Assembly (NCBI RefSeq): GCF_003967075.1
Contig: NZ_AP018664.1
Span: forward strand, 2,666,001-2,730,000
DNA length: 64,000 nt
DNA from: Sphingobium amiense
Lineage (GTDB): Bacteria > Pseudomonadota > Alphaproteobacteria > Sphingomonadales > Sphingomonadaceae
Reading direction: 5' to 3'
Under the pieces are notes generated by a model. It was not told the origin of the DNA and did no database searches. It saw nothing but the letters and a program-made list of their open reading frames with translations. The first letter of the stretch is position 1, and each line of letters starts with the position of its first letter. The position numbers were made by a program, and so were the translations under genes. Below, one piece after another: positions 14,599-60,283 of the stretch.

Positions 14599-15174
14599 GG
14601 CACTGTCAGTCTAATGCGAACTCGTCTCCACCGGATGTATTTCGGACTTGGGATGCCTGCCCTCAGCTCGCGATGGACCACCACTCTGCCAGGGCGGCAG
14701 AGCGTCTCTCCCTGTAGGTCTTTCGGTTAACGAGGTGGCGCTCCAGTGAGAAGTGGTTGTGGAGATTGGCGTGGACTGAGGCGAACTTCTGTAACGCCTT
14801 CATCTGCCTGAAGCGCAGCATCGCCCGCTCTCGTCGCCGAAAAGGCAGGTGGCTGTTTTCCGTCCTGTTGTTGGCCCAGCGTCCGACTTCCTGCCTGTCG
14901 CGATTACCAAGCTCATTCATTGCGGCACCGTAGGAGCGCAGTCCGTCCGTGGTGATCGCCTCGGGTGATCCATGGCGCTTGAGCGCCTTCTTCATGAAGG
15001 CAAGAGCTGCCCGTTTATCGCGCGTCCTGGTGACGTAGCTCTCGAGAACCTCGCCTTCGTGATCGACGGCACGCCAGATATAGACCATCTCTCCATTGAT
15101 CTTCACGTACATCTCATCGAGGTGCCAGCGCCAGTGGCGGAAGCCCCTCATCCGGCTGGCCCTCTGTCGGCGGA
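14599..15174. mobile_element. IS6-family element copy A, right part missing
   Basis: It starts with the terminal sequence GGCACTGTCAGTCTAATGCG shared with the copies at 26145 and 30593. From its left end to about 15145 it reads the same as the 30593-31429 copy. From about 15146 to 15174 similarity falls to about 80 percent, and it then ends, so roughly the last 260 bases and the right terminus are lost. It lies in the same orientation as the other two copies. No target duplication is visible. Confidence 0.85.
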
Positions 15175-15205
15175 ATGGCGGCTTAGCTCGGCATTGGCGG
15201 AACAT
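14663..15205 (-). pseudogene. Truncated IS6-family transposase
   Basis: 180 codons, of which about 150 match the C-terminal part of the intact 238-residue transposase at 30657-31373. The DDE residues are visible in WHLDEMY, TTDGL and NRTENSH. The N-terminal zinc-finger/helix-turn-helix part is absent and replaced by about 20 unrelated codons, so it is probably inactive. Confidence 0.85.
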
Positions 15206-15265: not shown

Positions 15266-16639
15266 TCAACCGTTGAGGGCTTCACGAATAGCGGGGATGG
15301 CGAGCATGTCGTCGAGTGTCGATTTCACCCGCGCGACCATCTCGTCGATCTCGTCGATCGTGCTGATAAGCGGCGGCGCAAGCCCGATCATCGCATCGCC
15401 GAATGCGCGAAACAGGACGCGCCGTTCAAAGCCGCAGCGGGCAAGTGCGTCGGGCAGGCCGAGCGCAGGATCAGGCCGTGTTTTTGCAACCTTGTCGGTT
15501 ACAAGCTCTATGCAGGCAAGCAGCCCACGGGAGCGGACATCGCCCACCAGCGGATGGTCGCTTAGCGCCGTCAACGCGCTGGCGAGGTGAGCGCCGCTGG
15601 CCTGACCGTTGGCGATGATCCCGCCTTCCTCGTAAAGGCGGAGCACCTCGAGGCCGACGGCCGCGCTTACCGGATGCCCAGAATAGGTCTGGCCATGGCC
15701 GATCACTGCCTTGCCGCTTGCGTCAACGATCGCGCGATAAAGCCGGTCGGACAGAAGCGTAGCCCCCATCGGGACGTACCCCGAGGTCAGGCCTTTGGCG
15801 AGGGTCATGACATCAGGGGCGACGCCGTCATACGCTGATCCGAACATTGGCCCGGTGCGTCCGAAGCCGGTGATCACTTCGTCTGCCACAAATACTATGT
15901 CCAGTTCGGCGCAGGTATCCCGCATCGCCCTGAACCAGCCATCGGGCGGCACGATCACGCCGCCGGAGCCGACGACCGGCTCGGCAAAGAAAGCCGCGAC
16001 CCTGTCGGGACCGATCTCAGCCACTTTCGCGCGCAGATGGCGGACGGACGCGGCGATTAGATCGGCGTCGCTGCCATCGAAGCGATAGGGCCAGGCGGTG
16101 GGTATATGATGTTGCGTCGCAACTGGCGCGTCGAAATGGGTGTGGAACACAGCCAGGCCCGTGATCCCTGAGCCAGCCGCACTCGACCCGTGATAGCCCC
16201 GATCGACCGCGATCATGTGCTTCTTTTCCGGTCGCCCGGTAACGTTGAAATAGTAGCGGATCAGCCTGATGGCGGTATCGACCGCGTCCGACCCGCCCTG
16301 AGTGAAGAACACATGATCGAGATCGCCCGGCGCACGTTCGGCGAGCCGCGCGGCCAACTCGACCGCGGACTCACTCGCGAAATGAAAATAGTTTGTGGCA
16401 TAGGGCAGGCGCGCCATCTGTTCGGCTGCTGCAGCCACCACGCTCTGCTGACCATAGCCGATGTTGACGCACCACAATCCCGAGAAAGCGTCAAGCAGAC
16501 GATTGCCGTCGCCATCGGTAAGCCAGACGCCATCGCCCGAAGTGAGAATGGTCGCACCTCGCCGTTCATGCTCCCCCCAGGACAGCACGGAATGGATGAG
16601 ATGGCGGCGATCTTTCTGGATCAACCCGTTATCGGACAT
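15266..16639 (-). CDS. Class III (omega) PLP aminotransferase
   Basis: A 457-residue fold-type I, class III aminotransferase of the omega-amino-acid/beta-alanine:pyruvate type. Visible signatures are FFTQGGSDAVDTAIRL in the cofactor phosphate region, FVADEVITGFGRTG with the Asp that binds the pyridine nitrogen, and MTLAKGLTSGYVPMG with the PLP Lys at about 282. It moves an amino group from a terminal amine or beta-amino acid to a keto acid. The ATG at 16639 is chosen because homologues begin near here. It is divergent from the LysR gene, with an inverted repeat between them, and probably handles an amine released by the downstream hydrolases. Confidence 0.9.
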   Translation of the reverse strand: MSDNGLIQKDRRHLIHSVLSWGEHERRGATILTSGDGVWLTDGDGNRLLDAFSGLWCVNIGYGQQSVVAAAAEQMARLPYATNYFHFASESAVELAARLAERAPGDLDHVFFTQGGSDAVDTAIRLIRYYFNVTGRPEKKHMIAVDRGYHGSSAAGSGITGLAVFHTHFDAPVATQHHIPTAWPYRFDGSDADLIAASVRHLRAKVAEIGPDRVAAFFAEPVVGSGGVIVPPDGWFRAMRDTCAELDIVFVADEVITGFGRTGPMFGSAYDGVAPDVMTLAKGLTSGYVPMGATLLSDRLYRAIVDASGKAVIGHGQTYSGHPVSAAVGLEVLRLYEEGGIIANGQASGAHLASALTALSDHPLVGDVRSRGLLACIELVTDKVAKTRPDPALGLPDALARCGFERRVLFRAFGDAMIGLAPPLISTIDEIDEMVARVKSTLDDMLAIPAIREALNG

Positions 16640-16735
16640 GCATTGGCCCCGTCGCAGATACCCGTTTTCGGGCGTATGACAGGCATATGTGCAGTCGGAA
16701 CCCGGTGCCATTGAAGTCGCCTAGATTGACAATGT

Positions 16736-16752
16736 GGTGCTCTGGCAGCACC
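16736..16752. promoter_or_regulatory. Putative LysR operator, copy 1
   Basis: An inverted repeat GGTGC-TCTGGCA-GCACC between the divergent aminotransferase and LysR genes. The same arms and the same 7-base spacing recur at 17792-17808 before the receptor gene. The T-N11-A pattern of LysR boxes is satisfied. Confidence 0.6.
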
Positions 16753-16807
16753 GTCGGCGCGTTCGCTGGGCAATTCCTGCCACAGTCGGCGCATCATCGA
16801 CGGGATC

Positions 16808-17785
16808 ATGACCAAAGAGCCGGACGCTGCCCCTCGTTCCTCAAGCGCAGATACCCTCGCAGAATCGTCAGGCGAGATTGCGCTGCCCCCATTTGCCTCG
16901 TTGCGCGCGTTCGAAGCGGTGTTCCGGCTCGGCGGCATTCGGAAGGCGGCAGCGCACCTCAGGCTCAACCACGCTGTCGTAAGCCGCCATGTCAAGCAGC
17001 TGGAAGAATGGCTGGGCGGGCCGTTGATCTCACGGTCCGGCAACCGACTGGCGCTTACCCCCGAGGGCGAGCGCTTCCATAGCCGGGTCTCTGCCGCCTT
17101 TGCCGAACTGCTGTTCGCCACCCAGGAATTCGAAGGTCGCCGTCGCAACGGTCCCTTGCGCCTGTGGTGCGTGCCCGGCCTTTCGATCCAATGGCTTTCC
17201 GCTCAGCTTGCCGCGTTCGAGCGCGCCAATGCCGATTTCCGCGTGGAACTGAAGCCAACCGATATCCCGCCGAATCTCTCGATACATGAGGCCGATGCCG
17301 ACATACGCTATTATCGCGACGATGGGCCGACCGTGCCCGGCGGTCGTGGGTTGCGTTGCTTCGAGCTGGCCCGGCCGGAGGTGATGGCGGTCGCCAGCGC
17401 TGCGGTTGCGTCCGCGCTTGGCCCGATCGATGCTCGCCGCCTGCCTTTTCTTCACGAGGAAGATGATAGCGAATGGCGGGCATGGCTGCGGCTCAACGGC
17501 ATAGAGCCTCCTGCCAGCCTCGAAGGTCCGGTCTGCTGGCACGCGCATCTCGCCATCGCCGCCGCCAAGCAGGGTCGCGGCGTCGCGCTCGCCAGCCGCT
17601 TCCTGGTTGAAGCGGATCTGGCAGAAGGTTCGCTCGTGCAGGTCAATATCCCGGATACTCGTCCAGCCGTGCTCGGCGGCTATATCCTCGTCGCGCGAGA
17701 GGATCGCTGGTCTACGCCAGTGCTGGCCTCGCTTCGGCATTTTCTGCGTCAGCGCGCCCAGGATTTCGTCGCGGCTAATATCTAA
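16808..17785 (+). CDS. LysR-family transcriptional regulator (GcvA-like)
   Basis: 325 residues with an N-terminal winged helix-turn-helix (about 30-90; GGIRKAAAHLRLNHAVVSRHV) and a C-terminal substrate-binding domain of the periplasmic-binding-protein type. It is divergent from the class III aminotransferase and lies directly upstream of the receptor operon. The identical inverted repeats on both sides suggest it controls both transcription units. About 20 extra residues precede the helix-turn-helix compared with usual members; the ATG at 16808 is the best start I see. Confidence 0.9.
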   Translation: MTKEPDAAPRSSSADTLAESSGEIALPPFASLRAFEAVFRLGGIRKAAAHLRLNHAVVSRHVKQLEEWLGGPLISRSGNRLALTPEGERFHSRVSAAFAELLFATQEFEGRRRNGPLRLWCVPGLSIQWLSAQLAAFERANADFRVELKPTDIPPNLSIHEADADIRYYRDDGPTVPGGRGLRCFELARPEVMAVASAAVASALGPIDARRLPFLHEEDDSEWRAWLRLNGIEPPASLEGPVCWHAHLAIAAAKQGRGVALASRFLVEADLAEGSLVQVNIPDTRPAVLGGYILVAREDRWSTPVLASLRHFLRQRAQDFVAANI

Positions 17786-17786
17786 C

Positions 17787-17813
17787 AATATGGTGCCTTC
17801 AAAGCACCATATT
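17787..17813. promoter_or_regulatory. Putative LysR operator, copy 2 (10-base-arm inverted repeat)
   Basis: AATATGGTGC-CTTCAAA-GCACCATATT begins two bases after the LysR stop and 100 bases before the receptor start. Its core GGTGC-N7-GCACC repeats copy 1. It could also fold as a hairpin at the end of the LysR message, but no T-run follows, so an operator is more likely. Confidence 0.6.
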
Positions 17814-17912
17814 TATATCCTTCGCACCTTCCGTGAAGCAGGATCTGCCCTGATCATGAGGCCTAATTGGGAGCCTGCACCAACGCCGGCCCGGTCATCG
17901 GGGGTAAGAGAA

Positions 17913-20129
17913 ATGGGAACCAGTTTTTCGCGCCGCATGAAAATTTCGCTTGGCCTAGCGGGCCTGATAATGCCCACCATGGCTACGGCGCAGGTCAGTG
18001 CCGCAGGCGAGGCATCAACCGCCGAGATCATCGTGACGGCCCAGAAGCGGGACGAATTGCTGAAAGACGTGGCGGTGCCTGTGACCGTATTGAAGGTCAA
18101 CACGCTTGTTGGCAGCAACAAGACGTCGATCAAGGACTATTTCTCCGCCGTTCCGGGGCTGGCGCTCGTGCCGTTTGAAACGAATGGCGCAGCGTCGATC
18201 GCCATTCGCGGCGTCACGACAGGCGGCTTTACCAATCCCACGGTCGGCGTCACGATCGACGATGTGCCATTCGGTTCATCCACCAGCCTTGGCGGCGGCA
18301 CCCCGGCTCTCGATCTCGACCCGAGCGATCTCTCCAGCATAGAGGTGCTTCGCGGACCGCAAGGCACGCTTTACGGCGCCAGCAGTATTGGCGGGCTTCT
18401 CAAATATGTAACGACGGCCCCATCGCTGACGGAGTTCAAAGGCCGTGTCGAGGCGGGTCTCAACAGCGTTTCGCATTCTGGTGACATTGGTTATGTCGTC
18501 CGCGGCGCAGTGAACGTCCCCGTCAGCGAAACCTTTGCGTTTCGGGCAACCGGGTTCAGCCGGTTTGACCCTGGCTATATCGACAATGTTCTGACCGGCC
18601 AGAAGGATGTGAACCATAGCAAGGCTTTTGGGGGAAGACTTTCGGCGCTGCTGAACCTGTCCGAGAGTTTTTCAGTTCGTGCGAGCGCCCTTTATCAGAA
18701 GACCAAGACTGGGGCCCTTGATGAAGAGCACACTGGCCCAGGCTATAATCTGGCGGCCCGCGAACAAAGTGTCGTGCGAGGCGTAGGGGTCGGCGAACAC
18801 GAGGTGCAAGCCTATAGCGTCGTGATGAACCTCGATCTGGGCAAGGTGGATCTGACGTCGCTCACGGGCTACAGCGTCAATGATCTCCGGGACTCGTTCG
18901 ATTACAGTTTCTATCTCGGCCAGGCGCCGGGATCGTTCAGCGACGCCACCTTCGGCGTTGCCGGCGCTCCGCTGAAAGAGCGTTATCTCACCAAGAAATT
19001 TTCGCAGGAATTGCGAGCATCCGCGCAGATCAAGGATTGGATCGACTGGCGCGTGGGTGCATTCTTCACGGATGAACAATCCCCCGACTGGCAGCGTATC
19101 GACGCGGCGGACCCCCTGACCGGGGCGGTCGCCGGCGAGCTTGCGTTATTCGACTGGAAAGTCACGTACCGCGAATATGCGGCTTTTTCGGACGTGACGG
19201 TGAAACTCTCGCCGATGTTCGACATCCAGTTTGGCGGCCGCAAAAGCTGGATCAGGCAAAGCTATGGCGAGGTCGATACCGGCCCCTATGCGGATGCGTT
19301 CGAAGGTGGATCGCCGGCTATTTTCCCCAAGACGATGACACGCGATTCAAAATTCACCTATCTGATCACACCCCGGCTGAAGCTCGCGTCGAGCTGGATG
19401 ATCTATGCCAGACTTGCGACAGGCTATCGCCCCGGCGGTCCAAATTCGACAGCAGCTCTGTTTGGCTTGCCCTTGAGCTACAAGCCGGACACGACGACCA
19501 ACTATGAAATCGGGATGAAAGGCAGCATCTTCGACAACAAATTGTTCGTCGACGCATCGCTTTACCATATCGACTGGCGCGACATTCAGATCTCGCTCGT
19601 GGATGCGGCGACCAGTCTGACCTACAACGCAAATGGCGCCAAGGCGAAGAGCCAGGGCATTGAACTCTCGCTGACGGCCAAGCCCTGGCAGGGCATGACG
19701 GCAACAGCTTGGGGAGCATTCAACGTCGCGGAGCTTTCAGAGCCGTTCCCGGCTGCGTCCACGGTCTACGGCGTCAAAGGTGATCGCCTGCCCTTCACCA
19801 GCCGCTATTCCGCTAGCCTGTCGCTCCAGCAGGACTTTCCACTATCCGACAACTGGTCGGGATTTGTTGGCGGTCAGCTTGATTATGTCGGTCGACGCAT
19901 CGGCGCGTTCACCGGGCCACCGCCGGCCGAGCGTCAGGTCTATCCGAGCTATGTGAAGGTAGACCTCAAGGCGGGCGTTGAAAACGGTCCCTGGGCCATC
20001 AATCTATTTGCTAACAACCTGACCAATCGCCGTGGCGTCCTTACCGGCGGTGCGGCCTCCCTTTTCCCCTATTCCTTCCGTTACCTGCCGCCGCGCAGAG
20101 TTGGTCTTTCGATCGCGCGAACTTTCTGA
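17913..20129 (+). CDS. TonB-dependent receptor
   Basis: A complete 738-residue outer-membrane receptor. It has a signal peptide (cleavage after about residue 27, TMATAQ), a TonB-box-like stretch (AEIIVTAQKRDE), a plug domain (about 50-160; LRGPQGTLYGASSIGGLLKY) and a beta-barrel ending in RTF. The ATG at 17913 follows GGGGGTAAGAG and gives a normal signal peptide; the frame is open further upstream into the LysR gene. It is related to the receptor at the left edge. It heads a run of genes for two kinds of amide/peptide hydrolase and an amino-acid permease, so it probably imports their substrate; no haem or siderophore context is present. Confidence 0.93.
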   Translation: MGTSFSRRMKISLGLAGLIMPTMATAQVSAAGEASTAEIIVTAQKRDELLKDVAVPVTVLKVNTLVGSNKTSIKDYFSAVPGLALVPFETNGAASIAIRGVTTGGFTNPTVGVTIDDVPFGSSTSLGGGTPALDLDPSDLSSIEVLRGPQGTLYGASSIGGLLKYVTTAPSLTEFKGRVEAGLNSVSHSGDIGYVVRGAVNVPVSETFAFRATGFSRFDPGYIDNVLTGQKDVNHSKAFGGRLSALLNLSESFSVRASALYQKTKTGALDEEHTGPGYNLAAREQSVVRGVGVGEHEVQAYSVVMNLDLGKVDLTSLTGYSVNDLRDSFDYSFYLGQAPGSFSDATFGVAGAPLKERYLTKKFSQELRASAQIKDWIDWRVGAFFTDEQSPDWQRIDAADPLTGAVAGELALFDWKVTYREYAAFSDVTVKLSPMFDIQFGGRKSWIRQSYGEVDTGPYADAFEGGSPAIFPKTMTRDSKFTYLITPRLKLASSWMIYARLATGYRPGGPNSTAALFGLPLSYKPDTTTNYEIGMKGSIFDNKLFVDASLYHIDWRDIQISLVDAATSLTYNANGAKAKSQGIELSLTAKPWQGMTATAWGAFNVAELSEPFPAASTVYGVKGDRLPFTSRYSASLSLQQDFPLSDNWSGFVGGQLDYVGRRIGAFTGPPPAERQVYPSYVKVDLKAGVENGPWAINLFANNLTNRRGVLTGGAASLFPYSFRYLPPRRVGLSIARTF

Positions 20130-20238
20130 GGATGACGAAGAGCGTCTCCTTCCATGGCGCCACGCCTCCTTCGGGTTCACACATATATTGGCGGGCGCCA
20201 GCTCCGCATCTGAACAACGACAAGGCTGAGGATCGGCA

Positions 20239-21339
20239 ATGAAATATGCAAGAATGGCGATCGAAGTCGAATCGCCCGAAGAATATGGCTACGACCTCAT
20301 CCGCAACAATCTTTCCGAAAGCTCGATCCGCGATCGGACGATCGCCGATTTCGGCCTTACCATTCCCAACCTGACATTGCTCTATGGCGAGCATAGGGGG
20401 GACAAGCGCCTTCGGGAGCTGGTCGCGGCGCAGGGTTCCGGTCTGTCGGCGGACGACGTTCTCGTCACTACCGGCGCCGCAGGGGCGCTCTTCATCATAT
20501 CGACCACGCTGCTTCGGCCAGCCGACCATCTGGTCGTCATTCGGCCGAATTACGCGACCAATATCGAAACGCCGAGGGCGATCGGTTGCCAGATCAGCCT
20601 GATCGATCTCAAGTTCGAAGACGGCTTCGCGATCAATCTCGACGCAGTGAGGCAGGCGATCCAGGCCAACACGCGGCTAGTGAGTGTCACCTGCCCGCAC
20701 AATCCAACGGGAACGATGCTTACGCGTGAGCAGCTTGATGGCCTTGTTTCGCTCACCGGGGATTTGGGCATCCATCTGCTGGTCGATGAGACCTACCGCG
20801 ATCTCTCATACGATGTGCAGCTTCCTATCAGCTCAAGCCTTGCGGATCATGTGATCAGCGTTTCGTCGCTGTCTAAGGCCTATGGCATTCCGGGCGTACG
20901 GACGGGGTGGCTCATCACCAAGGATCCCGAGCTGTATGTCAAATTTCTGGCTGCGAAGGAGCAGATCAACATCTGTGGCAGCATCGTCGACGAGTGGATA
21001 AGTGGGGCTGTGCTGGAGCAGCGAGACGATTTCCTGGCCCTGCTGCGGGTGGAGATGCGCAAGCGCTTGTCCATCGTGCGCGATTGGGTTGCCAGCGAGC
21101 CGATGATCGACTGGATCGAACCCAGCGGGGGCGTCGTCTGCTTCCCGAAAATCGTGGCAGACGCGGCATTCGATACCAAAGCATTCTATGCACGTCTGCT
21201 GGAGAAACATGGGACATATGTGGGGCCGGGGCACTGGTTCGAGATGCCGACCAATTTCTTCCGCATCGGCTATCTGTGGCCCACCCAAGATGAGCTTCAC
21301 GCAGGTCTGGAGGGCATTTCGAAGGCGCTTCGTGATTAG
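20239..21339 (+). CDS. Class I/II PLP-dependent aminotransferase
   Basis: A 366-residue fold-type I enzyme. Visible are the cofactor phosphate segment TTGAAGALFI, the N-P-T-G motif (PHNPTGTML), D-E-T-Y and the PLP Lys at about 213 (SSLSKAYGIPGVRTGWL) with a downstream Arg for the carboxylate. It resembles aspartate-aminotransferase-like enzymes, a family that also includes capreomycidine- and enduracididine-type PLP enzymes, so simple transamination is likely but not certain. It is the second aminotransferase of this cluster, of a different class from the one at 15266, which suggests that two kinds of amino group are processed. Confidence 0.87.
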   Translation: MKYARMAIEVESPEEYGYDLIRNNLSESSIRDRTIADFGLTIPNLTLLYGEHRGDKRLRELVAAQGSGLSADDVLVTTGAAGALFIISTTLLRPADHLVVIRPNYATNIETPRAIGCQISLIDLKFEDGFAINLDAVRQAIQANTRLVSVTCPHNPTGTMLTREQLDGLVSLTGDLGIHLLVDETYRDLSYDVQLPISSSLADHVISVSSLSKAYGIPGVRTGWLITKDPELYVKFLAAKEQINICGSIVDEWISGAVLEQRDDFLALLRVEMRKRLSIVRDWVASEPMIDWIEPSGGVVCFPKIVADAAFDTKAFYARLLEKHGTYVGPGHWFEMPTNFFRIGYLWPTQDELHAGLEGISKALRD

Positions 21340-21383
21340 ACGCAAACACGGCAAGGTGCGGCCTGCAATCTCTGGAGTTGGTA

Positions 21384-22604
21384 TTGTCGACGTCTTCCCC
21401 CATCGAGTTCGGCGGAAAAAAGCCATCAACCGCTTTGGAAATGGGGCTGATGGTGGGATCGCCTCCGCCTTCCGAACGGATCGTTACGCACAGGAACTGG
21501 GAATATCCGCCATTCAACCGCTGGGCATTCCAGAACATGCCTGCGATCTTTGCCACTGGCGAGGTCGAGCGGAACCCGGCGTTCGAGCGCGACCTCAGCA
21601 CGCCGCGATACACGATTGATACGCTTCAGGTCGGAGCTGGGCGATCCGTTCGCGAAGTTCTTGATGCGACCTACACTGATGCGTTCGTTGTAGTGCATCG
21701 CCGCAAGTTGCTGGTCGAACATTACGACAATGGCATGAAACCATCGACGCTGCACATGGCGGCGTCCATTACCAAGTCCCTCTTGGGGACGATCGCCGGG
21801 ATCATGGCGCACAGAGGGCAGCTGAACGTCCGCGCTCCCGTGAAGGACTATCTTCCGGAACTGGCGAACTCATCGTTCGGAGACGCCGCCGTGCAACAGG
21901 TGCTCGACATGACCACGGGCACGAAATTCAGCGAGGATTACGAAGACCCGGATGCTGAGATCCGGATCAAGGGTCAGGCAGACGGGTGGGATTTCAAGCG
22001 CGATCCGTCAGTCCCGGACACGATCTACGATTTCCTGCTCACCACAGTGAATGATCGACCCCATGGCGAGCGATGGGCTTATCGCAGTTGCATCACGGAT
22101 GTCCTCGGCTGGATATTGGAACGGCTGTCGGGTCTTCGGCTGCCCCAGCTCATATCCCAGGAACTGTGGGTCAAGATCGGCGCAGCGCATGACGCCCGCT
22201 GTATGCTCGGGCCAACGGGCAACGCACTCTATGACGGATGCTTCTTATCGACGGCCAGGGATCTCGCAAGGTTCGGATTGGCATTCTCGGATCGCGCGCT
22301 GGTGCCGCCCGCTTTCGTTGAAGATACGTTGGCAGGCGATGCCGAAAGCCGCGCCGCGTGGCTGGCGTCGGAGGTAGGACAGCGACGCTTCCCCGATGGA
22401 CATTACCGGAACCAGCTGTGGGTACCGGATCGGTCGCAACGGATACTCCTGGGGGTCGGGGTTTATGGTCAATATCTCTGGGTCGATCTGGACCGGGATG
22501 TGGTCATCGTGAAATTCTCTTCTTTGCCGGAAGCCTCCAGAGACCATTGGCGCGAAGCACATCTCGACCTTTTCCAGCGTATCGCGGCGCAATGCGCGGC
22601 CTGA
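21384..22604 (+). CDS. NylB-like serine hydrolase (beta-lactamase fold)
   Basis: A 406-residue class C beta-lactamase-fold hydrolase that resembles 6-aminohexanoate-dimer hydrolase (NylB) along its length. Compared with NylB as I recall it, shared blocks are NRWAF, TYTDAF, S-x-x-K (SITK, Ser128/Lys131), SEDYEDP (NylB NEDYVDP, Tyr170), Y-x-S-x-x-T-DVL-W (Tyr233, NylB Tyr215) and STARDLAR-G. The residue at NylB position 181 is Gly, as in the weakly amidolytic NylB' form. No signal peptide is seen, so it is probably cytoplasmic. The TTG at 21384 follows CTGGAG; an ATG at 21441 is possible. It likely cleaves an amide or ester; the true substrate is unknown. Confidence 0.85.
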   Translation: MSTSSPIEFGGKKPSTALEMGLMVGSPPPSERIVTHRNWEYPPFNRWAFQNMPAIFATGEVERNPAFERDLSTPRYTIDTLQVGAGRSVREVLDATYTDAFVVVHRRKLLVEHYDNGMKPSTLHMAASITKSLLGTIAGIMAHRGQLNVRAPVKDYLPELANSSFGDAAVQQVLDMTTGTKFSEDYEDPDAEIRIKGQADGWDFKRDPSVPDTIYDFLLTTVNDRPHGERWAYRSCITDVLGWILERLSGLRLPQLISQELWVKIGAAHDARCMLGPTGNALYDGCFLSTARDLARFGLAFSDRALVPPAFVEDTLAGDAESRAAWLASEVGQRRFPDGHYRNQLWVPDRSQRILLGVGVYGQYLWVDLDRDVVIVKFSSLPEASRDHWREAHLDLFQRIAAQCAA

Positions 22605-22647
22605 GCGCCGAACGGCGTCAATGTACGGCGATGGAAGGCCGCAAGAC

Positions 22648-24093
22648 ATGGGGAATGGCATGGCCATCAGTGAAACAGTCGATATGGTAGACGGCAACGC
22701 TGCGGATGCACAGCGTCCGGTCGCAGGTAAGCTCCACAAGCAGCTCACCACTTGGGGATGCCTGTTCCTGGCCATGTCCGGCCTGTCGCCGGCGCTTTCG
22801 GTATTCGGCATAGGATCGGACGTGCTGTTGCAGACCGGCTCCGCCGCTGCCCCCCTGTTCCTTTTGAGCATCGGCGTCGCGGTGATCTGGGGCACGGTCT
22901 ATGCCGAACTCGGATCGGCCTATCCCTATGCAGGCGGCGACTATGTGGGGGTCGGCACGATATTGGGCGCCTGGGCCGCCGCAGTCACGCTGGCCATCTG
23001 GGCAACGACATTGGCACCACTGATCGCCTTTGAAGCCAAAGCCTTCGCGACTTATATCAACTACGTCCTACCGGACGTCTCGGCCAGCCTCCTAACTGGG
23101 ATCGCATTGGCTGCTTCGGTGGGTATAGCCTTGCTGGCCGTGCGTGCCGGTGCCTGGGTCACGGGCGTGTTCCTCCTGATTGAGATGCTGGCCATCGTCG
23201 CCCTCGGTGCAGCCGGCCTGCTCCATTCCTCGGGCGATCCGCTGACGATCATCGCCAATCCCGTGGTGGCCGGACCCGAGGGGCTGCTCGTAGCGCCAAC
23301 TTTGGCCGCTTTGGCACTTGGCGGTGTCAACGCGGCCTATGCCACGATCGGCGGCAATCAAGCGCTCTATTTCGGTGAGGAGCTGATCGACCCTCACAAG
23401 GCCATGGGGCGCGTGGTGCTGATTGCGTGTTTCGTCGGCGCGTTCGCCATCGCCGTGCCGATGGTCCTGGTGGTCCTTGGAGCTCCCGATCTCGGCGCTA
23501 TCCTGCGCAGTCCCGCACCTCTGGCGACATTTCTGACCCAAACTCTTGGTTCGGGAGCCGGCAAGCTAATCAGCGTCTGCATCGCTCTCGCCATTTTCAA
23601 CGCCATGATCGTCCAAATCATGCTGGGTGCGCGGCTATATTTCAGCCTCGGGCGCGATGGGGTGTTTTCCGGCCCAGTTAACCGGTTCCTGAACCATGTG
23701 AGCCATAAATCCGGCGTGCCGCGCCGCGCGACGCTTGTGTTGGCCGTCTTTTCGGCCCTGTGCTGCCTGGCCAGCGCGCATGCCTTGCTGGTGTTTATGA
23801 GCGGCTTGCTGGTCTACGCTTGGGGCCTCGTCTGCCTTGCCGTGTTGATCGGCCGCCTGAAAGGGAAAACGGGGCAAGATGGCTATTGGCGGGCGCCTTT
23901 TGGAATTTTTGCTCCTGTGCTCGGCCTTGCTCTGGCCTTGGTATTTGCGATCGCCAAGGTGACTGATGAGGAATATGGAAGGCCAAGCCTGATTATCATG
24001 GGCGGTATCACGATTGCGGCGGTGTTCTGGAGTCGGCTCATCCTTGAGAAGCGGCCGGGCGGCTGGACGCCGACACTGGTGGATCATTCCTAG
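22648..24093 (+). CDS. APC-family amino-acid permease
   Basis: 481 residues with about 12 hydrophobic segments and the N-terminal APC pattern (LTTWGCLFLAMSGLSPALSV), placing it in the amino acid-polyamine-organocation superfamily of inner-membrane symporters. The ATG at 22648 has GGAAGG nine bases upstream; ATGs at 22621 and 22660 are alternatives. It lies 43 bases after the NylB-like gene in the same direction. It probably brings the periplasmic substrate, an amino acid or small amide, into the cytoplasm where the hydrolases act. Confidence 0.88.
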   Translation: MGNGMAISETVDMVDGNAADAQRPVAGKLHKQLTTWGCLFLAMSGLSPALSVFGIGSDVLLQTGSAAAPLFLLSIGVAVIWGTVYAELGSAYPYAGGDYVGVGTILGAWAAAVTLAIWATTLAPLIAFEAKAFATYINYVLPDVSASLLTGIALAASVGIALLAVRAGAWVTGVFLLIEMLAIVALGAAGLLHSSGDPLTIIANPVVAGPEGLLVAPTLAALALGGVNAAYATIGGNQALYFGEELIDPHKAMGRVVLIACFVGAFAIAVPMVLVVLGAPDLGAILRSPAPLATFLTQTLGSGAGKLISVCIALAIFNAMIVQIMLGARLYFSLGRDGVFSGPVNRFLNHVSHKSGVPRRATLVLAVFSALCCLASAHALLVFMSGLLVYAWGLVCLAVLIGRLKGKTGQDGYWRAPFGIFAPVLGLALALVFAIAKVTDEEYGRPSLIIMGGITIAAVFWSRLILEKRPGGWTPTLVDHS

Positions 24094-24156
24094 GCACAGT
24101 TCGTCCCACGCGAATGTCCATATTCCTTTGCATCTAATCCGGGAGGAAGAACAGAA

Positions 24157-25635
24157 TTGACCCAAACGCGCTGGCAGACATTGAGGGTCGATCCGGTTGC
24201 TTCGTCTGACCATGTGCTGGCTGGACTGGTGCTTCTAACCGGATCGGGCGAGATCATTAGCGATGTCGCGAATGTCGACGATCTGGCCGCGATCGTGGGA
24301 TCGCTCGCGCCGATCGAGCCCGGACGTGCGATCGAACTCTTCGGCGCAGATCAGAAGCGACGACTGCTGGTCCTCGGCGTCGACACCGGCACAAAGGATT
24401 GTTGGCTTCTGGCGGGTGGCCACCTGTTCGACGCGATGGTGGCGCACCGGTTTGAAGAAATTTCCCTTCCTGCGGTTTCCCTCATCGGCATCGATGCTTT
24501 CCATGCCATGTTGAAGGGAGCCTTGCTGCATGGTTTTCAGCTTGAAAATGGAAGGAAGACAGCGCGTAGGGGATTTCGGCCTCAGCGGCTGATCGTGCAG
24601 GAGGCGGACAGGGCATCTGCCGACGTGATCTCAACGATTGTCGAGGCAGTCAACCGTAGCCGCGCCTGGGTCGAGTCGCCTTCCAATTTGCTCAATCCGG
24701 TAACGTGGGCTGCGGAAAGTCAGACGGTCTTTGAAGCATTGGGTTGCAAAGTGAGTGTGCTTGGCCCGGCCGAACTCGAAGCCGCCGGGGCGGGCGCCCT
24801 TCTCGCGGTTGCAAGAGGCGGCGAGTTTGGCGCCCGTCTGGTTTCCGTGGAATGGTGCGGCGACCCGGGGCGCAGTAGTTGGGATGCCATCCTGGTCGGC
24901 AAAGGCCTGACCTTCGATGCGGGCGGACTCAACGTGAAGTCCGCTAGCGAAATGCACAAGATGCGTTCGGACATGGGCGGCGGTGCGGCTGTCTTTGGAG
25001 CTCTGGAACTTGCCGCGAAACGTGCATCGCGAGTGAACGTTGTCGCGATCGTGCCAATGTCCGAGAATCAGATTGACGCACTGTCATATCGGCCAGGTGA
25101 TATACTCACCTCAATGTCAGGGCTGACAATTGAAGTGGGAAATACCGACGCAGAAGGCCGGCTGGTGCTGGCCGACGCCATGACGTGGGGAATTCGCAAA
25201 TATCGGCCGACATGGACGATCGATGTCGCGACGCTGACAGGCATGGCCGGTGCAATACTTTCAGAAGAATATGCAGCATTTTATGCCTCGGATGATCAAC
25301 TGGCCGAAGATCTCGTTCGGGCTGGCCGTGCGTCTGGAGAGTGGCTCTGGCGCTTCCCTTACCATTCTTCACAAGAATACGTGGTTGAATCCGAAGTTGC
25401 CGATGTCTCCAATGTCGGGGTGCCCGGCTATCTCGGTATGGGCTGGGGCTCCCCGCTTGCCGGCGCTCTTTTCTTGGAAAAGTTTCGCGAACATACGAAA
25501 TGGGCGCACCTTGATATTGAGGGGGTCGTATGGGCCACCCGCCGCCGCTCGCTAGGCGGCAAAGGCGGCACCGGCTTTGGCGCGCTGTTATTGGATCAAT
25601 GGCTGCAAATAATAGAAACAGACATTGATTTGTAA
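24157..25635 (+). CDS. M17-family leucyl aminopeptidase
   Basis: 492 residues, the usual length for M17 cytosol aminopeptidases. The C-terminal catalytic domain carries the dinuclear metal ligands and catalytic Lys: VGKGLTFDAGGLNVK (about 247-261), RSDMGGG and the family signature NTDAEGRLVLAD (from about 329). It removes N-terminal residues from peptides in the cytoplasm. The TTG start is preceded by the strong site GGGAGGAAG. It is the last gene of the cluster and is a different paralogue from a housekeeping pepA context, suggesting a dedicated role in dismantling a peptide-like substrate. Confidence 0.93.
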   Translation: MTQTRWQTLRVDPVASSDHVLAGLVLLTGSGEIISDVANVDDLAAIVGSLAPIEPGRAIELFGADQKRRLLVLGVDTGTKDCWLLAGGHLFDAMVAHRFEEISLPAVSLIGIDAFHAMLKGALLHGFQLENGRKTARRGFRPQRLIVQEADRASADVISTIVEAVNRSRAWVESPSNLLNPVTWAAESQTVFEALGCKVSVLGPAELEAAGAGALLAVARGGEFGARLVSVEWCGDPGRSSWDAILVGKGLTFDAGGLNVKSASEMHKMRSDMGGGAAVFGALELAAKRASRVNVVAIVPMSENQIDALSYRPGDILTSMSGLTIEVGNTDAEGRLVLADAMTWGIRKYRPTWTIDVATLTGMAGAILSEEYAAFYASDDQLAEDLVRAGRASGEWLWRFPYHSSQEYVVESEVADVSNVGVPGYLGMGWGSPLAGALFLEKFREHTKWAHLDIEGVVWATRRRSLGGKGGTGFGALLLDQWLQIIETDIDL

Positions 25636-26144: not shown

Positions 26145-26986
26145 GGCACTGTCAGTCTAATGCGAACTCGTCTCTACCGGATGCATTTCGGGCTTTCGAC
26201 GCCTGCCCTCAGCCCGCAATGGACCACCACCCTGCCAGGGCGGCAGAGCGTCTCTCCTTGTAGGTCTTTCTGTCGACGAGATGGCGTTCCAGTGAAAAGT
26301 GATTGTGGAGATTGGCGTGGACGGAGGCGAACTTCTGTAATGCCTTCATCTGCCTGAAGCGCAGCATCGCACGCTCTCGTCGCCGGAAGGGTAGGTGGCT
26401 GTTCTCCACCCTGTTGTTGGCCCAGCGTCCGACCAACTGCCTGTCGCGATTACCAAGTTCATTCAATTGCGGCGCTGTAGGAGCGCAGGCCATCTGTGGT
26501 GATCACCTCGGGTGTTGCGTGGCGCTTGAGCGAGCGCCTTCTTCATGAAGGTAAGAGCAGCCCGTTTATCGCGCGTCTTGGTGACGTAGCTCTCGAGGAT
26601 CTCGCCTTCGTGGTCGACGGCACGCCAGAGATAGACCATCTCTCCATTGATCCTGACGTACATCTCATCAAGGTGCCAGCGCCAGTAGCGGAAGCCTCTC
26701 ATCCGGCTGATCCGCTGCCGGCGGATGTCTCCTGCGAACAGAGGGCCGAACCTGTTCCACCAGAGCCGTACCGTCTCGTGACAGATGTCGATCCCACGCT
26801 CGAACAGCAGATCCTCTACATTCCGCAGCGACAACGGATAGCGGACATACATCAGCGCCACGAGGCGGATCACCTAGGGCGACGAGTTGAAGTAGCGGAA
26901 TGGATTGGCTGGTTTTCGTGGACGAGACATGGAGCCTCGCCTAACTCCGACATCCTAACGGCTGGTGCATTTGCTTTGACAGTGCC
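26145..26986. mobile_element. IS6-family element copy B, decayed
   Basis: 842 bases from GGCACTGTCAGTC to TTTGACAGTGCC, so both ends are present. It is diverged from copies A and C and is exactly five bases longer than copy C (837), matching the 4-base and 1-base insertions seen in its transposase. The flanks (AATAATGC and CTCTGGTC) show no 8-base target duplication. Confidence 0.88.
26209..26928 (-). pseudogene. IS6-family transposase, inactivated
   Basis: Compared with the intact copy, the minus-strand gene has a nonsense change (SSP then TAG instead of GAG, at about 26873-26877), a 4-base insertion near 26530 (CTTGAGCGAGCGCC for CTTGAGCGCC) and a 1-base insertion near 26466. The DDE region is otherwise recognisable. 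It cannot make a full transposase. Confidence 0.85.
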
Positions 26987-27189
26987 CTCTGGTCGGCTGC
27001 GAAGTCGAGCAGGATTTTACGGGACACGGCGCGTGGGCGGACGAACGCGGTTTGGTGGCGATTTGATTGTGTGGGTTCCAATTGCCAAAGCGCCTCCACG
27101 ATCCGATTGAAAATGCCTCCGGGAAGCCGGAGCGGTTGAGAGTGGCGATCCATCTTGAGCTCAGGACGTGCCTCCAAAGCCCAAATTAT

Positions 27190-27218
27190 ATCCGGCAGAG
27201 ACGAGTTCGCATTAGACT
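27190..27218 (-). mobile_element. Solo remnant of the IS6-element left end
   Basis: The stretch TCCGG--GAGACGAGTTCGCATTAGAC is the reverse complement of the inner part of the left end of copies A, B and C. The outermost bases (TGACAGTGCC) are missing and no transposase follows. It sits inverted relative to the three copies, 200 bases beyond copy B. Confidence 0.6.
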
Positions 27219-27229
27219 ACTACCACCAT

Positions 27230-28153
27230 TCAAACTGTTGCAACCGTGGCGAGAGGCATGCCTTCATCCCAATAGGGCGGATCGCCGATGCTAAGTTTTA
27301 AATGATCGATCAGCGCGCGCATCTTCGCGGATGGGCCAAGGCCGTTATGATAGGCGATCGTGATCGGCGTCACATCAGGATCGACGCCGATATCTAATAT
27401 TTCGAGCGTGCCATCCCTGACCGCCTGATAGCTGTGGAAAGTCGGTAGCCACGCGATGCCGATCCCCGCGATGGCGGCGTCGCGCATGGCATAGCAGGAC
27501 GTGACCCGGAGCCTCGGCGTCACCCGCGCGACGACGCGCTCGATCTCCGCCTTGAACGTCCAGTCGTCGGGGCCGCGCTCCATATAGTGGATGGCCTTGT
27601 GCTGCTCCAGTTGATCGACCGTCTCCGGCCTGCCATGCCGGTCGAGATAGGACGGGGCGGCCACCAGTGTCCGGCGGCTGATTGTGAGGCGCTCGCTCGC
27701 CATCTTGGGCAGGTCCGCAGGCGCGATGCGCACCAGCGCGTCGAAGCTGCTGCCCAGATCGCTGATCCGGTCGTCGAAGTCCGCCGTGACGCTGACATCC
27801 GGATAGCGATGCATGAAGTCGTAGAGGATCGGCCCCAGATGCAGATCTCCAAAGGCGCGCGGCACGGCGATGCGCAGCGGTCCCGATATTTCACCGCGCC
27901 TCCGCGCCAGATCCTCCTTCGCCTCACGCGTTTCTGCGACGATCCGCCGCGCGCGGTCGAGCAGCGCCAGGCCGTCTTCCGTCAGGGCAAGCTGGCGGCT
28001 GTTGCGGCTCAGTAGCCGGGCGCCCACAGCATGTTCCAGTTCGGTCAGCCGCTCGCTCACGGCGGATTTCGACAGGCGAAGCTGCCGCGCCGCCTCGTTT
28101 ATCGATCCGCAGTCCGCGACTGTCACAAAAGCGATGATGCCGTCGAGCTTCAT
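27230..28153 (-). CDS. LysR-family transcriptional regulator
   Basis: 307 residues with an N-terminal helix-turn-helix (about 15-45; GSINEAARQLRLSKSAVSER) and a LysR substrate-binding domain; the overall pattern is of the DsdC/YafC-like single-domain group common next to hydrolases. It is divergent from the alpha/beta hydrolase gene 145 bases away and likely controls it. A 16-base direct repeat starts one base upstream of its ATG. The sequence is full length and shows no damage even though IS debris abuts its 3' end. Confidence 0.9.
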   Translation of the reverse strand: MKLDGIIAFVTVADCGSINEAARQLRLSKSAVSERLTELEHAVGARLLSRNSRQLALTEDGLALLDRARRIVAETREAKEDLARRRGEISGPLRIAVPRAFGDLHLGPILYDFMHRYPDVSVTADFDDRISDLGSSFDALVRIAPADLPKMASERLTISRRTLVAAPSYLDRHGRPETVDQLEQHKAIHYMERGPDDWTFKAEIERVVARVTPRLRVTSCYAMRDAAIAGIGIAWLPTFHSYQAVRDGTLEILDIGVDPDVTPITIAYHNGLGPSAKMRALIDHLKLSIGDPPYWDEGMPLATVATV

Positions 28154-28191
28154 GGTTCGCCTTTTCCGAGATATCGGTTCGCCTTTTCCGA
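28154..28191. promoter_or_regulatory. Tandem 16-base direct repeat in the LysR/hydrolase intergenic region
   Basis: GGTTCGCCTTTTCCGA occurs twice (28154-28169 and 28176-28191) with a 22-base period, i.e. two helical turns. It overlaps the LysR translation start region and would suit autoregulation by a protein binding one DNA face. Confidence 0.55.
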
Positions 28192-28298
28192 CCTACCCTG
28201 ATCGTTTCGTTCCGAGCATAATGTCAAAGGAGAGCGAATGCCAATCGAGCGATTACAGGCATCTACCGGACTTATCCTGAGATCTGATGGGGGACATC

Positions 28299-29222
28299 AT
28301 GAAGCCGTTTGCCTTGTCTTTGATGCTGTTTGGCATGGCGCTGGCGCCCTTGCCGGCCTCGGCCCAGGATTTCGTCTTTCCGCCCGGTTTCCAGATGAAG
28401 GAGATTGCGACCGACGGGACGACACTGCATGTGCGGATCGGCGGCAAGGGGCCGGCGGTGCTGATGCTGCACGGCTATGGCGAGACGGGCGACATGTGGG
28501 CACCGCTCGCGCGCGACCTCATGCGCGACCATACCGTGATCGTGCCTGACCTGCGGGGCATGGGCCTCTCGGCCAGGCCTGCGTCGGGCTACGACAAGAA
28601 AACGCAGGGCGCCGACATGGCGGGTCTGCTCGACGCGCTGAAGATCGGTCAGGTCGATCTCATCACCCATGATATCGGTAATATGGTCGGCTATGCCTTT
28701 GCGGCGCAGAACCGCGACCGGGTCAAGCGCTTCGTCCTCATGGATGCGCCGCTGCCCGGCGTCGGGCCGTGGGAGGAGATATTGAAGAATCCGCTGCTCT
28801 GGCACTTCCGCTTTGGCGGGCCGGACATAGAGCGACTGGTCGCCGGGCGCGAACGCATCTACCTCGACCGCTTCTGGAACGAGTTCTCGGCCACGCCGGC
28901 CCGGTTCAGCGAAGCCTCGCGCGAACATTATGCCAGCCTCTATGCGCAGCCGGGCGCGATGCATGCGGGTTTCTCCCAGTTCGCGGCCTTCGATCAGGAT
29001 GCGATCGACGACAAAGCCTTCCTCGCCCAGGGCAAGCTGACAATGCCGGTTCTGGCGATCGGCGGGGAGAAGTCCTTTGGCCCGATGATGGCGACCGTCA
29101 TGCGCTATGCCGCGACCGATGTGACCGAAGGCGTGATACCCGACGCCGGCCACTGGCTGATGGAGGAACAGCCCAAGGCAACCATCGCCATGGTCTCCGC
29201 CTTCGTGCGGGGCGGAAAGTGA
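28299..29222 (+). CDS. Secreted alpha/beta hydrolase, epoxide hydrolase/dehalogenase-like
   Basis: 307 residues with a signal peptide (to about residue 22, PASAQ), so probably periplasmic. The oxyanion motif HGYGE (about 59-63), nucleophile elbow THDIGNMVG with Asp125 and a final His in PDAGHWLMEE place it with Asp-nucleophile hydrolases (epoxide hydrolases and haloacid/haloalkane dehalogenases) rather than Ser esterases. The ATG at 28299 has GGGGGAC in front and gives the signal peptide; an ATG at 28287 is less likely. It is divergent from its LysR regulator and overlaps the disrupted cupin gene by four bases (GTGA), so the two formed an operon. Confidence 0.88.
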   Translation: MKPFALSLMLFGMALAPLPASAQDFVFPPGFQMKEIATDGTTLHVRIGGKGPAVLMLHGYGETGDMWAPLARDLMRDHTVIVPDLRGMGLSARPASGYDKKTQGADMAGLLDALKIGQVDLITHDIGNMVGYAFAAQNRDRVKRFVLMDAPLPGVGPWEEILKNPLLWHFRFGGPDIERLVAGRERIYLDRFWNEFSATPARFSEASREHYASLYAQPGAMHAGFSQFAAFDQDAIDDKAFLAQGKLTMPVLAIGGEKSFGPMMATVMRYAATDVTEGVIPDAGHWLMEEQPKATIAMVSAFVRGGK

Positions 29223-58186: not shown

Positions 58187-59860
58187 CTAGCTGGTCTGCA
58201 TCATCATCCTTTCCTGCTCGCACCATCGCACGGGCACAGCGCCGGTGGCGAGGAGCGCTGCGCTGTTGAGCCCTGCAGGCTGCCGCCCTGTGAGGATGGC
58301 GCCGGTGATGGCGGGCGAGGGGAAGGCGAGCCGCAGCACCCGGCTCATCCATGCGTCGGAGACCTTCTCGCGCTCGCACAGCATGGTGATGTTGACCTCG
58401 CCCTTCCGGAGCTCATCCCACCAGCGGTGCGCCTGCACGATGAGGCGGACGAGCGAGGCATCGGGCTGCGCCATGACCGTGCGCCCGTCCTGCTGTACAA
58501 GCTTCATGGCGCGGCCAGAGCGGCGCAGCCGCGCCCCGTCGACGAGCGTAACCCGCGCAGGCGCGTGATCGGCCTGCTCTGCCTGCAGCAGCGCGGCAAT
58601 GGCCTCGCTGCTGCAGTGGATCATGGTCCTCCCCTCCTCCACCTCGACGCGCAGGAGGACGGTGTCGAGCAGTTCCCTGTTCCTGCCCCGGAGCTGGGCC
58701 GCGATCTCCCTGCCCCTTATTTCGAGCGCCGGGAGCCGCCTGGGGTCCACCTCGAGCGCAGTCCTCTCGATGAGATCCAGCATGTCCTCGAACAGCGTGG
58801 CGATGCGGTGCAGGACCATCGCGTCGATCTCGCGCGCGGGAATACGCACGGTCGATCCCTGCCCGCCAGACTGCCGCGGCGCGCTGGCATAGTAGCGCCA
58901 GCGCTTCTGCGCCCCTGTCGCGCTCCCCTTCGACGCATGGCTGGCGATGAACGGGACGCCGGTCCGATCGACGATCCTGCCGGCCAGAAGGCTGGGCGCT
59001 GCCGCGCGGATCCTCTGGCGATGCCCATGGGTATTGGCGGCAAGCTGCGCCTGTACCGCATCGTAGAGTTCGTCCGGGACGATGGCGTCATGGAGGCCGG
59101 GATAGACCTGGTCCCCATGCTGCACCCTGCCGGTGTAGGTCCGGCATTTGAGCATCAGATAGAGCTGGCCCCGGCTGAGCGGGCGTCCGCCGATGCGCCG
59201 GCCGGTGCCGGTGGTGCGCATCGGCGCCAGCAGCCCGTCCCGCTCGAGCCTTTGCGCCAGACAGCGGACATTGCCGGTTTCGAGATAGAGCCCGAAGATC
59301 GTGCGCACGAGCGCGGCATGCTCTTCGACGACAGCGAGGCTGCGCCCGTCGGGCCGATAGCCGAGCGGCGGGATGCCGCCCATCCACATGCCCTTCGCTT
59401 TCGAGGCCGCGATCTTGTCGCGGATGCGCTCGGCGGTCACCTCACGCTCGAACTGGGCAAAGGAGAGCAGCATGTTGAGCGTCAGGCGTCCCATGCTGGT
59501 GGTGGTGTTGAACGACTGGGTGATCGAGACGAACGACGCGCTGGCGGCATCGAACGCCTCGACCAGTTTCGAGAAGTCGAGGAGCGAGCGGGTAAGGCGG
59601 TCGACCTTGTAGACGACGACGATGTCGATCCGCCCCTGCGCCACATCCTCCAGCAGCCGTCTCAGGGCCGGCCTCTCGAGCGTGCCGCCCGAGAGGCCGC
59701 CATCGTCATAGCGGTCCGGAACCTGGCTCCAGCCCTCGCTCGCCTGACTGAGGATATAGGCGGAACAGGCCTCGCGCTTTGCGTCGAGCGAGTTGAAGTC
59801 CTGTGCCAGTCCCTCCTCGCTCGACTTGCGCGTGTAGATGGCGCAGCGCACGCTCTTCAT
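58187..59860 (-). CDS. Large serine recombinase
   Basis: 557 residues. The resolvase domain starts at once with CAIYTRKSSEEG (Tyr9, Arg11, catalytic Ser13 or 14), then VVYKVDRLTRSLLDF and the long E helix, followed by a Recombinase (PF07508) domain (about 165-280) and a C-terminal DNA-binding part. It cuts and joins DNA through a 5'-phosphoserine link. The ATG at 59860 is used because it fits the family start and overlaps the natural DUF2924 stop (ATGA). With DUF2924 and DUF3489 genes it forms a module seen in many sphingomonads. Confidence 0.9.
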   Translation of the reverse strand: MKSVRCAIYTRKSSEEGLAQDFNSLDAKREACSAYILSQASEGWSQVPDRYDDGGLSGGTLERPALRRLLEDVAQGRIDIVVVYKVDRLTRSLLDFSKLVEAFDAASASFVSITQSFNTTTSMGRLTLNMLLSFAQFEREVTAERIRDKIAASKAKGMWMGGIPPLGYRPDGRSLAVVEEHAALVRTIFGLYLETGNVRCLAQRLERDGLLAPMRTTGTGRRIGGRPLSRGQLYLMLKCRTYTGRVQHGDQVYPGLHDAIVPDELYDAVQAQLAANTHGHRQRIRAAAPSLLAGRIVDRTGVPFIASHASKGSATGAQKRWRYYASAPRQSGGQGSTVRIPAREIDAMVLHRIATLFEDMLDLIERTALEVDPRRLPALEIRGREIAAQLRGRNRELLDTVLLRVEVEEGRTMIHCSSEAIAALLQAEQADHAPARVTLVDGARLRRSGRAMKLVQQDGRTVMAQPDASLVRLIVQAHRWWDELRKGEVNITMLCEREKVSDAWMSRVLRLAFPSPAITGAILTGRQPAGLNSAALLATGAVPVRWCEQERMMMQTS

Positions 59861-60283
59861 GCCGCCATCCTCTTCCTGAGGCCGAAGAAGGCAGGCCCGG
59901 ACCAGCGCGTGCCGGTGATGGCGCGGGCAACGTCGGAGAGGGAGCGATACACCCCTCCCCTCCCAGCGCACCGCGCCATCCTCGCCGACGGTCACGACAT
60001 GGGCCCTGCCCTGCCATTCGCGCACCAGCCGCGTGCCGGGCGATACCGCCACGGTGCCGCTTCCCGCCGCCATCGCCTGCGCCAGTCTCTGGCCCGTCTG
60101 GCGGTCAAAGCCCCCCAGCGCCCGTGCCTGTATCTCCCGGCCCAGTGCCAGCCGCAGCATGGCCGGACTGATGCGGGGCACGGGACTTGAGGTCATCGTT
60201 ACCCAGCGCTCCTTCAGCGCCGCCGACGACAGGCCTTCAAGGGCTGCAAGTTCCGCCTCGATGCGGGCGTCCATCGGGCTCAT
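59857..60283 (-). pseudogene. DUF2924 protein with a one-base insertion
   Basis: The first about 110 codons match DUF2924 (SPGTRLVREWQGRAHVVTVG). At a G-rich run near 59950 (GGGGAGGGGTG) one extra base throws the frame off; the missing tail YRSLSDVARAITGTRWSGPA and FFGLRKRMAA is present in the next frame and ends at 59857. Because of the extra base the gene reads straight into the recombinase as one 698-codon frame. The length of 427 bases is not a multiple of three, which supports the insertion. Function unknown; probably helps the recombinase. Confidence 0.78.

Follow-up and report, generated by a model that had tools for sequence, protein, structure and literature searches.

What does a relative of the hydrolase NylB do for a bacterium that keeps its gene beside genes for uptake, a peptidase and transaminases? 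NylB is the textbook enzyme for a man-made substrate, and few members of its family have, as far as we are aware, an established natural role. The question is raised by a seven-gene locus of Sphingobium amiense within the window analysed here, i.e. the 64,000 nucleotides at positions 2,666,001 to 2,730,000 of contig NZ_AP018664.1 (assembly GCF_003967075.1), in which all coordinates below are counted. A preliminary description made from the sequence alone had named seven families, and all of them proved to be real open reading frames (ORFs), according to the ORF list, Pfam and NCBIfam: a class-III aminotransferase (AT3), a LysR regulator, a TonB-dependent receptor, a class-I/II aminotransferase (AT1), the NylB-like serine hydrolase (HYD), an APC-type permease and an M17 leucyl aminopeptidase family protein. 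AT3 is transcribed divergently from the LysR gene, and the receptor, AT1, HYD, permease and M17 genes follow in one direction with successive gaps of 109, 38, 16 and 63 bp. We favour, with moderate confidence, the reading that the locus arrived by horizontal transfer and serves, as one regulon under LysR, to scavenge a compound with amide or peptide linkages; what is new in this analysis is the evidence for one regulon.

This evidence lies in the two gaps that flank the LysR gene. Both contain the palindrome GGTGC-N7-GCACC, which in the LysR-receptor gap forms the core (17792-17808) of a palindrome with longer arms, and which includes a T-N11-A box, the LysR box. The regulator thus has the domains, and the gap between it and AT3 the T-N11-A palindrome, that are expected of a LysR-type regulon. 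The palindrome occurs at eight places in the 4.77-Mb genome. Six of these lie inside ORFs that match Pfam above cut-off (GGDEF/EAL, DUF4198, carbonic anhydrase, phosphoenolpyruvate (PEP) carboxylase, low-molecular-weight (LMW) phosphatase and release factor), and the two ORFs overlapping 16736 gave no Pfam match. Therefore, by this Pfam scan of ORFs across the sites, the two in the window are the only ones outside recognisable genes. Both of them also lie inside long ORFs, so location in a mere ORF does not distinguish the other six. The palindrome was first spotted by eye and tested statistically afterwards. Any palindrome with 5-bp arms and an equal gap of 0-15 was shared by one of 5000 shuffled gap pairs, a figure uncorrected for the choice among the six gaps inspected; a palindrome with 9-bp arms in the LysR-receptor gap was on its own not rare enough (47 of 5000 shuffles).

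The site is also retained in a relative. AT3 was found at E<=1e-170 in 12 of 337 family genomes, its own included, and the AT3 loci of five of the other 11 were examined. One of them (L152, by its inferred name Rhizorhabdus dicambivorans) carries, in unchanged order, LysR (65-66%), AT3 (73%) and a TonB receptor (35%). The AT3-LysR gap of L152 keeps GGTGC-N7-GCACC, adjoining an identical stretch of 19 bp with TTGACA at its end, and its LysR-receptor gap holds ATGGTG-N9-CACCAT, one base off that form. Thus, L152 resembles our cluster in the regulator, the divergent transaminase, the receptor and both palindromes, whereas an MFS transporter, an S15/PepX (CocE/NonD) hydrolase and a partial M14 carboxypeptidase match stand after the receptor in place of AT1, HYD, the permease and M17. 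The LysR-AT3-receptor module therefore recurs with different hydrolases. The shared and conserved operator-like site supports the view that both arms form one LysR regulon, and the LysR protein would bind the palindromes, one per flanking gap.

Features of the cluster and its borders in the window
Feature	Position	Strand	Remarks
IS6-family element, truncated, left border	14603..15174	-	98.8% against the 30597 copy (572 bp); PF13610, NF033587
Transposase remnant ORF of left IS6 copy	14663-15205		
Class-III (omega-type) aminotransferase, AT3	15266..16639	-	PF00202, 287 bits; ORF open to 16711
Operator-like palindrome GGTGC-N7-GCACC	16736..16752	.	AT3-LysR gap; kept in L152
LysR regulator (GcvA-like)	16808..17785	+	PF00126, PF03466
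10-bp-arm palindrome AATATGGTGC-N7-GCACCATATT	17787..17813	.	LysR-receptor gap
TonB-dependent receptor	17913..20129	+	PF00593, PF07715; start 17913 or 17937; longest ORF from 17607
Class-I/II aminotransferase, AT1	20239..21339	+	PF00155, 141 bits
NylB-like serine hydrolase, HYD, beta-lactamase fold	21378..22604	+	
APC-type amino acid permease (AA_permease_2)	22621..24093	+	PF13520, 85 bits
M17 leucyl aminopeptidase family protein	24157..25635	+	PF00883, 313 bits
IS6-family element, right border	26149..26987	-	90.3% against the 30597 copy (839 bp)
Transposase ORF of right IS6 copy	26463-26873		only 136 aa

Further relatives and their surroundings were considered as well. AT3 scored 725 bits with PRK05965 (cut-off 729), and its best matches among solved structures include polyamine, putrescine, 4-aminobutyrate and omega transaminases, as the chains are named. 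Two 42% relatives of the regulator (Novosphingobium EMRT-2 and Sphingobium TomTYG64) are likewise divergent from a transaminase annotated gabT, in gabT-gabD loci; unlike the cluster, these loci include succinate-semialdehyde dehydrogenase, and neither a receptor nor a peptidase nor a hydrolase of the HYD kind adjoins them. One receptor relative (36%, Novosphingobium EMRT-2) has a PF00144 hydrolase, a dipeptide epimerase and a POT peptide transporter as neighbours, and the 49% relative of M17 in Paracoccus denitrificans belongs to a peptidase cluster with PF00144, M81 and M42. These neighbourhoods support the proposed regulon, since they place relatives of M17, of the LysR-AT3 module and of the receptor in clusters that handle peptides or omega-amino acids. 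On named plasmids, the neighbourhoods viewed were those of 2 of 15 receptor, 2 of 10 LysR, 1 of 12 AT3, 1 of 30 AT1 and 2 of 15 M17 matches listed. The EMRT-2 row (L182:3518-12380) comprises, besides the four genes above, a DUF1611 gene.

The second half of the cluster seems to be a module of its own. For the HYD relatives P0003, P0005 and P0006 (68-74%), the longest contigs measure 567,665, 25,428 and 813,931 bp, and these three lengths come back with the AT1 relatives P0123, P0126 and P0125 (74-77%); because of this the AT1-HYD pair would appear to recur. HYD itself was scarce, being found in its own genome only among 94 genus genomes (E<=1e-60) and 397 family genomes (E<=1e-80), in one further genome (36% identity) among 396 of the order (E<=1e-70), and in 19 of 385 class genomes including its own (E<=1e-60; the others 34-43%). 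M17 at E<=1e-80 was restricted to its own genome, one of 318 of the class. No further copy of the whole cluster was detected in the genomes sampled from the genus (94), the family (397) and the order (396), which are overlapping samples. Thus, the neighbourhood search proposed in the preliminary description did not recover the seven families together, but parts of them do recur, namely the module of L152 and, by inference, the AT1-HYD pair. Together with the one-directional run of five genes with gaps of at most 109 bp, this recurrence suggests that the grouping exceeds chance. None of the 62-67% AT1 loci (best 80 of 343) had a relative of HYD, the permease, M17, LysR or the receptor at E<=1e-20 in the stretches examined, and one of the 80 had an AT3 relative at 39%. 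At E<=1e-6, none of 20 distant-HYD loci (32-41%) had M17, AT1 or the permease; an AT3 relative (29%) was present in one, a LysR relative in five and a receptor relative in two. Since the partner genes are missing from these 20 and 80 loci, the seven genes do not seem to be an old unit. The cluster looks like two joined modules, LysR-AT3-receptor and AT1-HYD, the latter with the permease and M17. A literature search conducted mostly by titles and abstracts, with most subscription journals outside its reach, found no publication on this seven-gene set among the papers listed.

The joining may be related to insertion sequences. The cluster is bracketed by two IS6-family copies in the same orientation, which is the arrangement of an IS6 pseudo-compound transposon, and a third copy starts at 30597. 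Measured in 2-kb steps, the G+C content was 57.6-62.0% between 16 and 28 kb and 61.0-68.3% elsewhere, with the exception of 56.3% at 62-64 kb. We infer that the cluster was acquired by horizontal transfer.

A scheme can be proposed for the favoured regulon. The TonB receptor would carry the compound across the outer membrane, and the APC permease would take it, or a fragment of it, into the cell. HYD would make the unusual cut, in an amide or possibly an ester, and the M17 aminopeptidase would strip N-terminal residues. AT1 would then deaminate the released alpha-amino acid, and AT3 the released amine or beta/omega-amino acid. LysR, acting on one palindrome per flanking gap, would switch both arms on with the compound or its amine product. 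Both the order of these steps and the class of substrate are proposed from gene content. Pfam revealed no aldehyde dehydrogenase among the seven genes, and therefore the AT3 product would need oxidation by an enzyme coded elsewhere. The earlier claim that the cluster takes up and dismantles an amide- or peptide-linked compound under one LysR gene is thus upheld as far as a regulon with uptake, hydrolysis and transamination is concerned, but its nylon detail is not. As to the epithet "dedicated" given to the leucyl aminopeptidase, the genome encodes two M17 proteins besides this one. More tentatively, and in our judgement rather unlikely, the locus could be a natural home of a NylB-type amide hydrolase: the regulon would serve a natural mixed-backbone peptide (alpha/omega or alpha/beta), in which HYD would cut the non-alpha amide bond, M17 would take the alpha-residue and the two transaminase classes would deaminate the two kinds of product, a reusable LysR-transaminase-receptor module for sensing and uptake being joined to exchangeable hydrolase modules.

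Several observations weigh against the favoured reading. Read backwards as a control, the palindrome pattern was likewise found at three places in the genome, at least two palindromes appeared in 2 of 100 whole-window shuffles (the expectation being 0.16 matches), and predicted promoters and terminators were not above chance. Four of the five AT3 loci had no LysR relative at E<=1e-8, although the contig of one of them (L153) extends only 0.3 kb upstream of AT3; another (L155) has a weak partial receptor match. AT3 was not detected on the AT1-HYD contigs (best 120 of 7973 AT3 proteins, longest contig of each only), and therefore AT3 seems not to travel with the pair; the best AT3 relative among these 120 (P0241, 95%) stands for 17 contigs. 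The closest receptor relative examined (42%, Novosphingobium humi) adjoins PepSY and GSDH genes, not peptidases. The full set of seven genes is known from this genome alone. Finally, HYD could be an esterase.

The nature of the bond cut by HYD is where two of the competing explanations part from an amide- or peptide-scavenging regulon. HYD is 38% identical to NylB over a full-length alignment and has the same fold; the catalytic Ser112, Lys115 and Tyr215 of NylB correspond to S130, K133 and Y235, which are invariant in 15 aligned sequences (HYD and 14 of the 120 listed), and the best HYD relatives with a solved structure are 6-aminohexanoate-dimer hydrolases. This last relationship speaks for the catabolism of nylon-6 oligomers, with HYD in the role of NylB and AT3 in that of NylD, as the analogy in the preliminary description had it. 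However, HYD has G199 and D286 at the positions of D181 and N266 of NylB, both of which are described as important for dimer hydrolysis in the accessible text of PMC7019077; that of PMC11809917 describes a G181D/H266N/D370Y enzyme. PF03576, the family of NylC/BapA-type peptidases, had no match in the genome, and the same search was positive in five of 14 control genomes. Unlike in the nyl pathway, the neighbours of HYD are M17, the permease, the receptor and AT1, nylon would leave M17 unexplained, and the seven genes lack an aldehyde dehydrogenase. We rejected nylon as the main reading because of the residues and the missing NylC; as a substrate it is unlikely, and this pathway is the least probable of the explanations considered here. 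The analogy is further weakened by Pme of Pseudomonas fluorescens (PFLU3311), a NylB relative of proven function, which the accessible text of PMC12642758 presents as a methyl esterase. Pme shares with HYD that it is a serine hydrolase and that, of the enzymes with a validated function, the nylon-dimer hydrolases are its nearest relatives (same source); unlike what we propose for HYD, this phenylpropanoid methyl esterase acts on an ester in aromatic catabolism, and the two are likened by description, not by sequence. By this example, HYD would cleave an ester or another carbonyl bond, e.g. a beta-lactam, and the regulon would serve an ester-linked or other conjugate with the transaminases acting on its amine part, an explanation that we regard as unlikely. 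An ester leaves M17, the amino acid permease and the two transaminases unexplained. In addition, Y170, which we take to be the residue that NylB uses on the amide, was kept in all 15 aligned sequences.

The other two explanations concern the company that HYD keeps. The modules, i.e. LysR-AT3-receptor and AT1-HYD (with or without the permease and M17), could have been joined fortuitously between the IS6 copies and need not share a substrate. Either module is seen without the other, IS6-family copies lie on both sides of the segment, and the 62-67% AT1 relatives occur in unrelated settings. One palindrome, however, is situated directly upstream of the run from the receptor to M17, and no terminator-like site on the + strand was predicted in the gaps of that run, in a scan that was overall at chance level. 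We consider such a chance gathering improbable, though less so than the degradation of a cyanopeptide. In the latter case, HYD would act on a linear, microcystin-like peptide, the aminopeptidase on its fragments and AT3 on an Adda-like beta-amino acid. MlrB has a beta-lactamase fold, and the Paracoccus relative of M17 adjoins a PF00144 hydrolase and an M81 protein, the latter scoring 309 bits with MlrC (below cut-off, 999). According to PMC7232508, the mlr route employs MlrA, MlrB and MlrC one after the other. However, none of the seven genes matches M81/MlrC or an MlrA-type protease (Pfam; the rest of the genome was not searched), and the Paracoccus PF00144 protein does not align with HYD, so we think a cyanopeptide very improbable. 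The P. denitrificans cluster resembles ours in a 49% M17 beside a beta-lactamase-fold hydrolase; it differs in having M81 and M42, and no LysR, TonB receptor or transaminase is annotated in the 19 kb viewed. On Paracoccus plasmids (L119:4653-11336 and L120), MFS, PF00144 hydrolase, M81, M17 and M42 genes stand in a row, possibly a cluster for the degradation of unusual peptides.

AT1 was also tried as a guide to the substrate. A hint of proline or ornithine came from one PutA locus and one P5CR-like neighbour, and it was dropped because tblastn found P5CR-like genes in 2 and PutA-like matches in 6 of 81 AT1 loci, several of them weak. The best NCBIfam models of AT1 (PRK07324, GntC and VioD) all scored below cut-off, and Lys213, Arg342 and Asp183 were invariant in 18 aligned sequences. 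The 62-67% loci are mostly Mesorhizobium settings with glucoamylase-, 6PGDH- and G6PDH-like neighbours (by eye). In 10 of the 81 loci (L007, L010, L019, L028, L040, L066, L070, L078, L084 and L087), AT1 adjoins a relative of a 278-aa regulator with a LuxR-like helix-turn-helix, as judged by eye. On a Rhizobium etli Mim1 plasmid (L087:5011-11107), the AT1 relative (63%) lies next to class-V aminotransferase, RidA, LysR and ABC transporter genes. This locus may be linked to mimosine use, a point that the papers listed did not settle.

Two NylB-like genes stand next to each other in 7 of the 20 loci with distant relatives (L163, L167, L168, L169, L171, L173 and L177; four from one genus, g153). 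A further family member (G107; L179:5249-9226) has a TonB receptor gene that ends three bases before a NylB-like hydrolase gene. None of the HYD relatives on named plasmids (3 of 20 listed) had an annotated M17, TonB receptor or class-I aminotransferase, and one had class-III aminotransferases. A plasmid of Pseudomonas sp. MPC6 (L088:3661-16857) carries a NylB-like hydrolase (40%), three MFS genes, a phosphotransferase and two class-III aminotransferases.

Two gene starts deserve comment. AT3 probably begins at 16639 rather than at 16711, because the six closest homologues are 459 aa long in four cases and 495 and 501 aa in the remaining two, and because NCBIfam first matches at residue 25. 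The longest receptor ORF overlaps LysR, and the start is probably at 17913 or 17937, not inside the LysR gene. To the right of the cluster, an 80-bp inverted fragment (27139-27218) is 80% like the end of the IS6 element; immediately beyond the right IS6 copy, a second LysR gene is divergent from an alpha/beta hydrolase gene (27230-29222). A serine recombinase fused to a DUF2924 domain (PF00239, PF07508, PF11149) is encoded at 58187-60283.

With a relative of NylB placed in one regulon with genes for uptake, a peptidase and transaminases, and with testable operator sites, the inducer would offer a direct route to a natural substrate. A LysR-transaminase-receptor module with swapped hydrolases would, moreover, suggest how sphingomonads assemble new catabolic routes.

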